Positions 19,211-25,784 are shown, numbered from the stretch's first letter. The stretch: 45,624 bases of DNA from Nitrososphaerota archaeon (GCA_031274765.1 JAISPR010000009.1:1-45624); one strand, 5' to 3'. Translations and numbers: made by a program. The notes: generated from the sequence alone by a model not told the origin.

Positions 19211-21130
19211 GTGTTAATCAGAGAAATTATTGTTGAAAATTTTATGAGTTACGACTACGCCCGAGTGCCCTTAAAGCAGGGTGTTAACGTAATTGGTGGT
19301 CCTAATGGCGCGGGTAAATCTTCCCTTCTACTTGCCATAAGTGTAGGTTTAGGACAAACTAGCACAGAGCGCAGCCGTAAACTCAGTGACCTTATCCGCT
19401 GGGGACAAGACCAAGCCCGCGTCACCCTAATTTTAGATAACACAAAGCAAGGTAACCGACGCCCCGAACCCAAATATAACAAAGATCAACTTTTCCTAAC
19501 ACGACTTTTGCGCCGTGATGGCAAATACTGGTTTGAACTCGAAAACCGTGTTGCCTCAAAACAGGACATCGAGCGGCTTTTGGGTAAATTCGGGGTGGAC
19601 CCCGATAACATGCTCATTATCATGCATCAAAACATGGTCGAACAATTTAGTGTACTAAATAACATAGATAAACTCCGTATGGTTGAAGAAGCAGTAGGCC
19701 TTGAATCTTTCCGCGAAAATGTCGTAGCGGCTAAAACTAAACTTACCCGCATTCTAACACAAGAAGAATCCGTGAGCAAACTACTCGAACAAGCCGAGCA
19801 GACCCTCAACTACTGGCGTGACCAATACGAAAAATTCCAAGAAAAAAAACAGCTTCAACTAAAAAGGCAGTTCTTAGATCGCGAACTGGTTTGGGCTGAA
19901 GTTGAACGTCGAGAAAGCATAGTGAAGAACTTGCAAACTAATTTTAACCGCACACAACAAGCGCTAAACAAAATCGAGGATGAACGTCAAGCCCTCACTG
20001 GCGAGATAGATGGGCAACACATTGAGCAACAAACCCTCAAAGATGAACTCAAACTCATGTTTGAAGAACGCCTCAGTTTAGAGCGCCAAGTCGCCCAAAA
20101 CCAGCGCCAACTTTCCCTTGTGGAACCATTACTCCTCGAAGCCGAACACCTCAAATCACTCACAGATATTAATCAATTCAAACTTTTACGCCCCGAAAAC
20201 CTAAAAAAATTGCTTGAAATATCACAGCAACAAATAGAGAAAACAACCAAACAAATCACTGCCAACCAAACCGTAATGCAACGCCTCGAAGAATCAACTA
20301 ACAAAATCACCACTAAAGCGTTTGACAAACGCATAACCCTTGCCCTTTTGGATTCCAAACAGAGCCGCGCCTCCAAAGAACAAGAAACCACCGAAAACTC
20401 CCTCAAAGAGGCCCAAGAAAACCTCAACATTGCACTTACCCAAGCACAGACAACAGGCGAACGTATTGCCGTAGTCAAATCCACAAACGAAATCCAAGCG
20501 GAAATGGGATTAACCGATGGGCATCTAGGGGCACTCTCAGGCGTCTCAGAGGAAATAGAGCGACAATACGAATCCTACTCAAAACTCTATTTCGAACTCA
20601 AAGAAAAAGTCCAACTCGTTGCTGAAAACCGCGAAAAAACCCTCGAAGAAGTCAAGATCCGCATGACTGCATGGCGCACTGTTATAGAACAACTACTAGA
20701 ACGCGTCAACTTGGAGTACCAACGTATCATGAACCAAACTTTGGCAACAGGTGAAATTCAGCTCTCCAGTGCACAAGACATCACAGCCGCTGGTTTAGAC
20801 ATCTATGTGGGCTTTAAGGGTAGTAAACCTGTTACACTCAACGCTTACACGCAAAGTGGTGGTGAACGTACAACTGCCACGATGGGGTTTTTGTTAGCAT
20901 TACAGCAGCATGTCCGCTCACCCTTTCGAGCCGTTGATGAATACGATATTCATATGGATCCAAAAAATCGTGAAATGATAGCTAAGGTGTTGGTCGCTAT
21001 GATAAAAGATGCTACCTCACAATATGTTGTTATCACACCTAGTCAAATTACTTTTGCACAGCAGGATGCAAATGTCATCACTGTGCAAAGTCTTGATGGA
21101 AAGTCTCTTGTGCGCGAGGTTGCTAAATGA
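19211..21130 (+). CDS. Short SMC5/6-type ATPase (SMC/Rad50 superfamily)
   Basis: A 639-residue ABC-type ATPase with head halves at both ends and coiled coil between. I start it at GTG 19211 (GAGG ten bases upstream), because LIREIIVENFMSYDYARVPL is the family start. Walker A is GGPNGAGKSS (residues 29-38), the signature is QSGGER (548-553) and Walker B is FRAVDEYDIHMD (about 573-584). Several features recall eukaryotic SMC5 and SMC6 rather than bacterial Smc or Rad50: ENFMSYD, the R-S-R-K-L-S-D-L-I block after Walker A, SPFRAVDEYDIHMDPKNRE and TSQYVVITP. The coiled-coil arms are only about 150 residues each. There is no CxxC zinc hook and no room for a normal hinge. Its stop overlaps the next gene (ATGA). 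It likely forms a complex with the two following products. Confidence 0.85.
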   Translation: MLIREIIVENFMSYDYARVPLKQGVNVIGGPNGAGKSSLLLAISVGLGQTSTERSRKLSDLIRWGQDQARVTLILDNTKQGNRRPEPKYNKDQLFLTRLLRRDGKYWFELENRVASKQDIERLLGKFGVDPDNMLIIMHQNMVEQFSVLNNIDKLRMVEEAVGLESFRENVVAAKTKLTRILTQEESVSKLLEQAEQTLNYWRDQYEKFQEKKQLQLKRQFLDRELVWAEVERRESIVKNLQTNFNRTQQALNKIEDERQALTGEIDGQHIEQQTLKDELKLMFEERLSLERQVAQNQRQLSLVEPLLLEAEHLKSLTDINQFKLLRPENLKKLLEISQQQIEKTTKQITANQTVMQRLEESTNKITTKAFDKRITLALLDSKQSRASKEQETTENSLKEAQENLNIALTQAQTTGERIAVVKSTNEIQAEMGLTDGHLGALSGVSEEIERQYESYSKLYFELKEKVQLVAENREKTLEEVKIRMTAWRTVIEQLLERVNLEYQRIMNQTLATGEIQLSSAQDITAAGLDIYVGFKGSKPVTLNAYTQSGGERTTATMGFLLALQQHVRSPFRAVDEYDIHMDPKNREMIAKVLVAMIKDATSQYVVITPSQITFAQQDANVITVQSLDGKSLVREVAK

Positions 21131-21954
21131 CCGCTGACAAGTCTGATAAGAAACTGGGTCAAGAACACCTAGAACGTATTATCGAGATGTGTGTTGCTAT
21201 TGAAAATAATCAAGTTGATCCTTTTACCCTAAATGTGGATGACATCATTTGTGTGGTAAAGCAATATTTTCCCCATTGGGCTTATCCTGATGAACTCGAG
21301 CTTGATGCCAAAGCACTTCATCATCTTGCTTCTGTTATTAAAATCCAAAGCGAATGGGTTAAACAACGTTCCACCTCTCTTTACACCGATCCGTTTCTCT
21401 TAGAGGAAAAAATTCGTCTGACTCCAAAAGAGAGGTTGGTTCAAGTTTTTGCTTCTGCGTGGACGCCATTGGTTGAATTTGAACAGTTAAATCTCTACAA
21501 TATTGCTCAGGGTATGCTTTACTGGAATACATTGGAACCTTTGAGTGAGCGTTGGCGCGATATAGATGTTGCCGCGGTTGAAATCGGTTCGGTGAGTCGC
21601 GATGAATTGGTCAAGCAGCGGGTATTAGGTGATAAGGAATTCAGTGAAGAGCTTACAAACTTCTGGCAGGAACTCAAACTCAAAGTTAAAGAAAAAGGCA
21701 TCGATGGAAAAATCGGTTACTGGGATTTCATTGGAACCGATACCTATCCAGAAACAGTGCAGCGGGCATTTCTTGCAAGTTTTTTAGTTACTTATGGATA
21801 TGCCACCTTAGAAATTGATAGGTTGGAGGAAACGGTGTTCATAGTTCCCTATGAGTTGCTCCATGAGGCAACTTTTAGTGCTCAATGCACCTCGGTTCCC
21901 CTTACGGTGTCTTGTGAAGATTGGCAGAAATGGCGTGAGGGTCAAAAGTTATGA
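21127..21954 (+). CDS. Kleisin-like partner of the SMC-type ATPase (ScpA/Nse4-like)
   Basis: A 275-residue protein I do not recognise by simple identity, but its layout suggests a kleisin. Residues about 30-100 (NQVDPFTLNVDDIICVVKQY, then LDAKALHHLASVIKIQSEWV) follow the ScpA N-terminal pattern, in which helices bind the SMC neck. The middle is less structured-looking. The C-terminal 70 residues (TVQRAFLASFLVTYGYATLE followed by two strands, ETVFIVPYE) look like a winged helix, as expected of the part that binds the other SMC head. The start ATG overlaps the ATPase stop and the stop overlaps the next start, so the three proteins are almost certainly made together. The kleisin assignment is inference. 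Confidence 0.6.
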   Translation: MTADKSDKKLGQEHLERIIEMCVAIENNQVDPFTLNVDDIICVVKQYFPHWAYPDELELDAKALHHLASVIKIQSEWVKQRSTSLYTDPFLLEEKIRLTPKERLVQVFASAWTPLVEFEQLNLYNIAQGMLYWNTLEPLSERWRDIDVAAVEIGSVSRDELVKQRVLGDKEFSEELTNFWQELKLKVKEKGIDGKIGYWDFIGTDTYPETVQRAFLASFLVTYGYATLEIDRLEETVFIVPYELLHEATFSAQCTSVPLTVSCEDWQKWREGQKL

Positions 21955-22562
21955 GTACAAGAAAAAAAGGTCTATATGCAGGTAAAGTCAAAAAAGCGGT
22001 TCAGTTGCTTTTCTATAAACGCCATGTTAAACCCGGGGTGAAGGGTTGGGAACTACATAAGGCGCTGGGTAGCGATTATCCAAAGGTGCTTGATGTTTTG
22101 GATGATTATCTAAAACCTATGAGTATGGAGGTTAAAACTGTTTTTGAAGAAACAAAACCCTCTGAGGAACCCACGCTTGAGGAGCTCGATAAGGCTCGCT
22201 TCTTTGTTGTGTTGCGAGATGATGACACTAAGGATAAACTGATGGGTTGGCGCATAGATGATCTTGCCGGTTTAGTTGTCACAATCAGTTATCTTATTAG
22301 CAAAAAAGGACAAGCAAACCGTAAAGATATCGAAAAAATGTTGGGTGAAAAACTTCCTGGATGGAAAGTAAATTTAAATCTTGATCGTTATATCCGTTAT
22401 GGATATATCATGCAGGATGAACGGGGTCAGTTGTTTTTGGATTGGCGTACACAAGTCGAGGTAGATCAAAAGAAACTGGTTGACATGTTGTTGTCCGTAG
22501 AGAAACAGGCGGTTAAAGTTGCAGAATCTTTGCAAAAAAAACCCGCCGAAGAGGTTCAATAA
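21951..22562 (+). CDS. Tandem winged-helix, kite/MAGE-like third subunit
   Basis: A 203-residue protein with two winged-helix-like units. The first spans about residues 8-85 (KKAVQLLFYKRHVKPGVKGW through ARFFVVLRDD). The second spans about 95-165 (DDLAGLVVTISYLISKKGQA through GYIMQDERGQLFLDWRTQVE). Two winged helices in about 200 residues, next to an SMC-type ATPase and a kleisin-like gene, is the layout of kite subunits (ScpB, MukE, Nse1, Nse3/MAGE). The second unit's closing YIMQ...LDWRTQVEVD recalls the end of MAGE domains. I rate the general kite role above the specific Nse1/Nse3 relation. It overlaps the preceding gene by four bases and is the last gene of the operon. Confidence 0.55.
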   Translation: MSTRKKGLYAGKVKKAVQLLFYKRHVKPGVKGWELHKALGSDYPKVLDVLDDYLKPMSMEVKTVFEETKPSEEPTLEELDKARFFVVLRDDDTKDKLMGWRIDDLAGLVVTISYLISKKGQANRKDIEKMLGEKLPGWKVNLNLDRYIRYGYIMQDERGQLFLDWRTQVEVDQKKLVDMLLSVEKQAVKVAESLQKKPAEEVQ

Positions 22563-24992: not shown

Positions 24993-25784
24993 TTGCAGGG
25001 TAAAAATAATAAACTCATATTACTAAAAGAACCCCAATTAGCCGAAGCGGCTATCGTAATCGAGAGAGCATTTGCTCAGCGTCATACGTTGCTTGTTGCC
25101 GGTCGTTGTTATGTGCACTACGAGGGTCGAGCAAGTTCGACGTTGGAAAACGGTGAGCGGCTTCTTATTGTCAAATCAGATGGTTCGTTGCTTGTTCATC
25201 GTCCAACTGGGTCTGAACCTGTTAACTGGCAGCCTGCGGGTGGTGTTTTTAATGTCGAAGTTAAAGTTGATAAGCTCGAAATACAGGGTATCCGTAGTAA
25301 ACCCCGTGAAAGTGTGAAAGTGATTTTCGATGAGGTTTTAATGGTTTCTGCTCTTGGTCTTTTTGATGCTGGTGAGTTTTTGTTACATGCAAGTGAAGAT
25401 GATATGCATCGTGCTATACTTTTAAAACCCAGCTTGTTTGAAGAAGGTTTTAAACCCATTAGTTGGGAGAAGCACATTGAGCCGGGGTTTGTAGATATTT
25501 ATGGTGAAGATAAAGACGGTAAACTTGTTATTGTTGAAGTTAAACGGCGTGTAGCTTCCAAAGATGCTGCGCTACAGCTTTCAAAATATATTGAGCCTAT
25601 AAAAGCAAAGGTTAATCGGCCCGTTCGGGCAGTGCTTGCTGCTCCAGGTCTTGCAAAAGATGTACAACGTTTGTTGGTCACGTTAGGTTTGGAGTTCAAA
25701 GTGTTGGATCCCAAAGACTGTGCATTGGTGCTCAAAAAATCGGGTGTATCCAAACTGGAATCCTTTTTTAACTCAGAAAAGTGA
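24993..25784 (+). CDS. nucS: NucS/EndoMS mismatch-specific endonuclease
   Basis: A 263-residue DNA repair endonuclease that cuts both strands at mismatches in archaea and actinobacteria lacking MutS/MutL. The RecB-like nuclease core is in the C-terminal half: PGFVDIYGEDKDGKLVIVEVK gives the D-x(n)-E-x-K metal-binding set, and DAALQLSKYIEPIK follows. The N-terminal half, with WQPAGGVFNVEV, is the dimerising DNA-binding domain. The frame's only plausible start is TTG 24993; no strong Shine-Dalgarno precedes it. In many archaea nucS lies near radA or other repair genes. Here the nearest candidate repair-related system is the SMC-type operon 2.4 kb upstream. Confidence 0.93.
   Translation: MQGKNNKLILLKEPQLAEAAIVIERAFAQRHTLLVAGRCYVHYEGRASSTLENGERLLIVKSDGSLLVHRPTGSEPVNWQPAGGVFNVEVKVDKLEIQGIRSKPRESVKVIFDEVLMVSALGLFDAGEFLLHASEDDMHRAILLKPSLFEEGFKPISWEKHIEPGFVDIYGEDKDGKLVIVEVKRRVASKDAALQLSKYIEPIKAKVNRPVRAVLAAPGLAKDVQRLLVTLGLEFKVLDPKDCALVLKKSGVSKLESFFNSEK

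Follow-up and report, generated by a model that had tools for sequence, protein, structure and literature searches.

The operon at positions 19211-22562 of the analyzed window (the whole 45,624-nt stretch of DNA from a Nitrososphaerota archaeon, GCA_031274765.1 JAISPR010000009.1:1-45624) codes for an SMC ATPase, a kleisin and a kite protein. We consider it likely that these proteins constitute the second SMC complex of a bathyarchaeon, homologous to the eukaryotic Smc5/6-Nse1/3/4 core. This degree of confidence applies to the explanation as a whole, including the clamp mechanism and the ancestry, both of which are inferred; the homology of each individual subunit was established by computation. 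To our knowledge, SMC5/6 is the least understood of the eukaryotic SMC complexes and the only one among them that has retained kites. The operon may show SMC5/6 as it was before the eukaryotic gene duplication, and it bears on the origin of that complex.

Organization and conservation of the operon

All three genes, as well as the features within them described below, are on the plus strand. The first gene (19211..21130) codes for a 639-residue SMC5/6-related ATPase, assigned from its sequence, PDB searches and a phylogenetic tree. Its start codon is GTG, at the position where homologues start with ATG (MLI[QR]E). The second gene (21127..21954), whose ATG overlaps the SMC stop codon, encodes a 275-residue Nse4-type kleisin identified by Pfam, profile search and hhalign. 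The third (21951..22562) encodes a 203-residue Nse1/Nse3-like KITE protein with two winged helices, identified by Pfam, a structural model and a fold search. The original prediction had placed three open reading frames here on one strand, and both junctions are ATGA overlaps, as it had described. The motifs that it quoted (ENFMSYD, SPFRAVDEYDIHMDPKNRE and TSQYVVITP) are indeed found in the ATPase. The proposed SMC, kleisin and kite composition is borne out for all three genes, the physical complex being an inference. Upstream of the operon there are rpoB, rpoA, L30e and a NusA-like gene; downstream are genes for an ArsR-type regulator, a methyltransferase and, a short distance away (24993-25784), a NucS-type endonuclease.

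The closest relatives (89% identity) belong to Candidatus Bathycorpusculum (Bathyarchaeia). At 76 related loci from GTDB genomes, kleisin relatives are present in 75 cases and kite relatives in 73, all the exceptions being contig ends. At 40 deeper loci both partners are always present, and at 35 of these the SMC gene adjoins them in the same orientation; the gene order is also preserved at 10 further loci. The kleisin profile detected the family in 77 of 101 relatives, in 155 of the 397 genomes of the phylum and in 21 of the 28 genomes of the phylum containing a Hadesarchaea genome. Broad sampling around a Hadesarchaea genome (394 relatives) added eight strong loci. Contamination is unlikely, because in the latter phylum the operon resides on contigs of 229 and 460 kb. 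Altogether, the operon is kept at ~118 loci in Thermoproteota and Hadarchaeota. The three-gene arrangement is not due to chance, as the partner genes recur across both related and deeper loci, and its conservation is thus a computationally established property. Since some near-complete genomes of the same genus yielded no match, the complex is not universally essential.

Several neighbouring genes were observed repeatedly. A large Lhr-type helicase gene is convergent to the operon at ~25 mostly deep loci, often right after the kite gene (for example, L131:6845-9685 on the plus strand and L132:6342-9293 on the minus strand). The link between Lhr helicases and DNA repair makes this neighbourhood a hint at a repair role, but no more. 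At 43 loci, both shallow and deep, a 230-residue protein without a significant Pfam match is encoded divergently upstream of the operon (for example, L047:5007-5696, minus strand). It may be a regulator or a fourth partner, although none was seen at that place in the window. One genome (G088; loci L307 and L308) carries two kleisin-kite pairs, the second with a full SMC; the kleisins are 56% and the kites 65% identical. This duplicate pair could represent the start of a paralogue pairing such as that of SMC5 and SMC6.

An SMC5/6-related ATPase without a hinge

Pfam SMC_N matches the ATPase of the operon (5e-33), and domain matches, motifs and the structural model together reveal the features of the superclass: a split head, a coiled coil, Walker A, the signature and Walker B. 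Walker A (GGPNGAGKSS, residues 29-38; 19295..19324) has a core that is invariant in the alignment. The ABC signature (QSGGER, residues 548-553; 20852..20869), located in the sequence and in the tree alignment, is common to SMC5. The segment spanning Walker B and the D-loop (FRAVDEYDIHMD, residues 572-583; 20924..20959) is of the SMC5/6 type according to the PDB search and the head columns. None of the 46 divergent proteins of the family departs from Walker A, the Q-loop Gln, SGGER or the Walker B DE; ATPase activity can therefore be expected, if only by inference.

In the AlphaFold model (pLDDT 88), a helix (residues 165-317) leads to a 10-residue loop and a return helix (328-415), so that the predicted arms are ~150 residues long. 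The loop (residues 318-327; 20162..20191) forms the apex of the coiled coil at the position of the canonical SMC hinge. A conserved segment resembling the SMC joint (residues 416-456; 20456..20578) follows in the alignment, with helix breaks in the model at residues 416-424 and 442-448. Pfam SMC_hinge did not match the operon ATPase, although it did match the canonical SMC in the same genome, and the apex lacks a CXXC hook. SMC_hinge is likewise absent among the 25 commonest families listed for the 46 family members. A stray match in one or two of them cannot be excluded, but their lengths speak against it: relatives comprise 571-705 residues, compared to 1184 for the canonical SMC that the source genome also encodes. 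Computation thus shows an SMC family without a hinge, in which, as far as the model and domain searches can tell, an uninterrupted coil carries an apex loop.

The original prediction considered the ATPase closer to SMC5/SMC6 than to bacterial-type Smc or Rad50, and both profile searches and phylogeny agree with this view. The best matches of the ATPase alone among PDB sequences are SMC5 and SMC6 (~1e-26). The 46-member profile scored highest against SMC6 (246 bits) and SMC5 (237), followed by archaeal Smc (179), SMC3 and SMC2 (~159) and Rad50 (48). The head tree was based on both head halves (66 rows, 413 columns, LG+C20 PMSF) and did not include RecF or RecN; its SMC2 and SMC3 rows were PDB sequences, two other SMC2/SMC3 head sequences having been used as search probes only. 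In this tree, the archaeal family (support 97/96) forms a clade with SMC5 and SMC6 (100/99), canonical SMCs (SMC2, SMC3, Bacillus and archaeal Smc) form another (98/98), and Rad50 and ASRP are set apart (99/99). The grouping with Rad50 that would have refuted the original prediction did not appear; RecF, named alongside it, was not among the rows. The branching order among the archaeal family, SMC5 and SMC6 is unresolved. Removal of the Rad50/ASRP outgroup left a split of 100/100 between canonical SMCs and SMC5/6 with the family. The evidence from AU tests is mixed: a group of SMC5/6 and canonical SMCs that excludes the archaeal family was rejected (p 0.029), while a union of the archaeal family with canonical SMCs was not (p 0.10). 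The SMC5/6 branches are long. At the head columns where the consensus of the family differs from the canonical one, SMC5/6 agrees with the family 13 times and never with canonical SMCs. Foldseek searches with the SMC model matched all SMCs and did not tell their heads apart.

Kleisin, kite and the coexisting Smc-ScpAB

The kleisin consists of an ScpA-N-like N-terminal helical domain (21208..21363), supported by a match to ScpA 6ivh and by hhalign with archaeal ScpA, and a C-terminal winged helix of the Nse4_C type (21649..21876), supported by Pfam and by yeast and plant Nse4. This is the domain composition that the original prediction had read as a kleisin. Pfam Nse4_C matches 28 of the 47 family members (best value 5.6e-9), but the kleisin of the operon itself only at 0.013, so the strength of the assignment lies in the family rather than in the single protein. 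The family profile ranks yeast Nse4 at the top (9e-7), followed by plant Nse4 (3e-5) and the ScpA C-terminal domain (0.004); the N-terminal domain of ScpA is matched at 0.09, over the corresponding N-terminal part. The hhalign alignment with archaeal ScpA (probability 93%) covers most of the protein and identifies the second gene as a kleisin by another route. The operon kleisin is the sole Nse4_C match in the whole genome. The other kleisin of the genome, encoded beside the canonical SMC, matches ScpA and Rad21/Rec8 but not Nse4_C. A diverged kleisin with an unusually long open frame (434 residues) was noticed in an archaeal genome (L304:817-2118).

The kite reading of the third gene is likewise supported, so that the other refuting condition of the original prediction, a lack of kleisin or kite matches, does not hold either. 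Its model (pLDDT 91) displays tandem winged helices, and in Foldseek searches Nse1, Nse3 and MAGE come out on top, followed by archaeal ScpB, MukE and JetB. Sequence support is weaker. The operon kite alone has no significant Pfam match; within the family, MAGE (12 of 47 members, best 2.6e-4) and Nse1 (10 of 47, best 2.2e-4) are the two commonest families, and ScpB is absent from the 25 families listed for the 47 members. We regard the protein as a kite of the Nse1/Nse3 (MAGE) type, weakly supported by sequence and best supported by the fold search with the predicted structure. It has no cysteine and therefore no RING. Neither ScpA nor ScpB is among the Pfam families listed for the second and third genes.

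The source genome has a single SMC of the SMC5/6-related family. On another contig (C118) it also carries consecutive genes for a canonical SMC, ScpA and ScpB; the first two overlap by one base (L198:1495-5771), and ScpB follows. The presence of this separate, complete operon in the same genome makes the three-gene operon a second complex, a coexistence again established computationally. The situation differs in 16 near-complete Thermoproteota genomes from five other families (G103, G111, G119, G127, G134, G142, G160, G170, G175, G106, G136, G129, G154, G210, G190 and G195), which contain the short SMC while lacking any SMC_N match in an open frame of more than 1000 residues. The short-SMC complex may therefore be their only SMC complex.

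Mechanism, alternatives and comparison with known systems

We infer that the complex serves genome maintenance as a DNA clamp driven by ATP, in which two short-armed SMC molecules would engage head to head upon ATP binding. The Nse4-type kleisin would bridge them, its N-terminal helices resting on one neck and its C-terminal winged helix on the opposite head, and two kite copies bound to the kleisin middle would press DNA onto the engaged heads. The inferred stoichiometry of this ATP-gated clamp is thus 2:1:2. As there is no hinge, the ring could be closed only by the heads and the kleisin, or by an unidentified contact between the arms. The likely job, a repair role that is itself inferred, would be on repair or recombination intermediates, alongside canonical Smc-ScpAB; where the complex is the only SMC, it may organize the chromosome as well. 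Eukaryotic SMC5/SMC6 and Nse1/Nse3 would have arisen when the single SMC gene and the single kite gene of such a complex were duplicated, again an inference. We put forward only tentatively, and with more doubt than conviction, a stronger version: that the machine ancestral to SMC5/6 survives in this hinge-less, kleisin-closed clamp, which, as the sole SMC complex, organizes the chromosome alone in several archaeal lineages.

Could the operon instead encode a diverged Smc-ScpA-ScpB condensin paralogue without any special tie to SMC5/6, the likeness being merely an attraction of fast-evolving sequences? The alignment of the kleisin with archaeal ScpA, the indecisive AU test and the inability of Foldseek to separate SMC heads all leave room for such an interpretation. 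Yet three independent subunits all indicate SMC5/6, the diagnostic head columns are one-sided, and the real ScpA and ScpB of the genome are recognized as such, ScpA having no Nse4_C match. In addition, published trees recover the same clade with 100% bootstrap support (PMC9389158). Thus, we find this explanation unlikely.

Even less convincing is a Lamassu-, Wadjet- or MADS-type defence system that senses foreign DNA. PADLOC models mad3 (1.5e-24) and LmuB (5e-14) do match the ATPase, and human SMC5/6 restricts extrachromosomal DNA (PMC10586767), but the PADLOC matches cover only the general ATPase head, and the second and third genes have none. Nor is any effector or nuclease gene conserved with the operon, which is inherited across two phyla, often near housekeeping genes (RNA polymerase, Lhr), unlike defence islands. 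We give hardly any credence to an archaeal Rad50-like or ASRP/coalescin protein accompanied by two unrelated winged-helix regulators. ASRPs are similarly short and archaeal, and the ASRP model matches the ATPase at 51.5 bits, but the NCBIfam cut-off is 300 bits, and published ASRPs lack the conserved neighbours seen here (PMC9389158). Membership of the ATPase in Rad50 or ASRP was rejected on this cut-off and on their separation in the head tree, from which RecF and RecN are absent.

The SMC5/6-related assignment is in line with earlier work. As reported in PMC9389158, which cites Yoshinaga and Inagaki 2021, archaeal SMC5/6-related SMCs are the sister group of SMC5/6 (100% bootstrap). The operon ATPase shares this relationship and is very probably a member of that clade, which, as far as this source goes, has been known since 2021 and is not new here. 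This follow-up paper does not mention a kleisin or an operon for these SMCs. In the open-licence literature, preprints not included, we came across no account of an archaeal Nse4-type kleisin, an Nse1/3-type kite or the missing hinge, which does not exclude a prior one.

Among other systems, archaeal Smc-ScpA(-ScpB) has the same kleisin-SMC architecture and co-occurs in the source genome, but its SMC is long and hinged and its kleisin is of the ScpA/Rad21 type. The operon cannot be assigned to Smc-ScpAB, as it has neither a hinged SMC of the canonical clade nor ScpA or ScpB matches among the families listed. Archaeal Smc-ScpA works without a kite (Jeon et al., PMC7055376), and in the six archaeal pairs that were tested, ScpA was not bound by ScpB (PMC7055376). 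Our results suggest that kites are not absent from archaeal SMC biology, contrary to the kite-less Smc-ScpA, but belonged to another complex. Wadjet JetABC and MukBEF resemble the operon in the SMC-kleisin-kite composition and the kite fold, but differ in the SMC and kleisin families; the second and third genes have no Jet match, and there is no JetD nuclease or conserved fourth gene of the JetD Toprim type. ASRPs (coalescin ClsN, Sph) are short archaeal SMC-like ATPases too, but form a separate clade, have no conserved gene neighbours (PMC9389158) and define a cut-off that the operon ATPase does not reach.

The closest counterpart is the eukaryotic Smc5/6-Nse4-Nse1-Nse3 core, with which the operon shares an SMC5/SMC6-clade head, an Nse4-type delta-kleisin and an Nse1/Nse3-type kite. 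Other membership features are not met: eukaryotes have two paralogues each of the SMC, forming a heterodimer, and of the kite, one with a RING, whereas the archaeal operon has a single gene for each, a kite without a RING, a short-armed SMC without a hinge, and no gene for Nse2, Nse5 or Nse6. The 'miniature SMC5/6' of the original prediction therefore holds in that SMC5/6, rather than Smc-ScpAB, provides the closer counterpart of every subunit, but not in the sense of a scaled-down SMC5/6 with all its parts. Lacking heterodimerism, the RING and the hinge, it is strictly not an SMC5/6 complex but a sister complex, which probably works like the SMC5/6 core, its function and assembly being inferred. 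With a single SMC, an Nse4-type kleisin and an Nse1/3-type kite, the complex is a simple three-protein model of the state before duplication; the missing hinge would test whether SMC function requires a hinge at all, and the lineages in which no other SMC was found provide a natural experiment on what it can do by itself.
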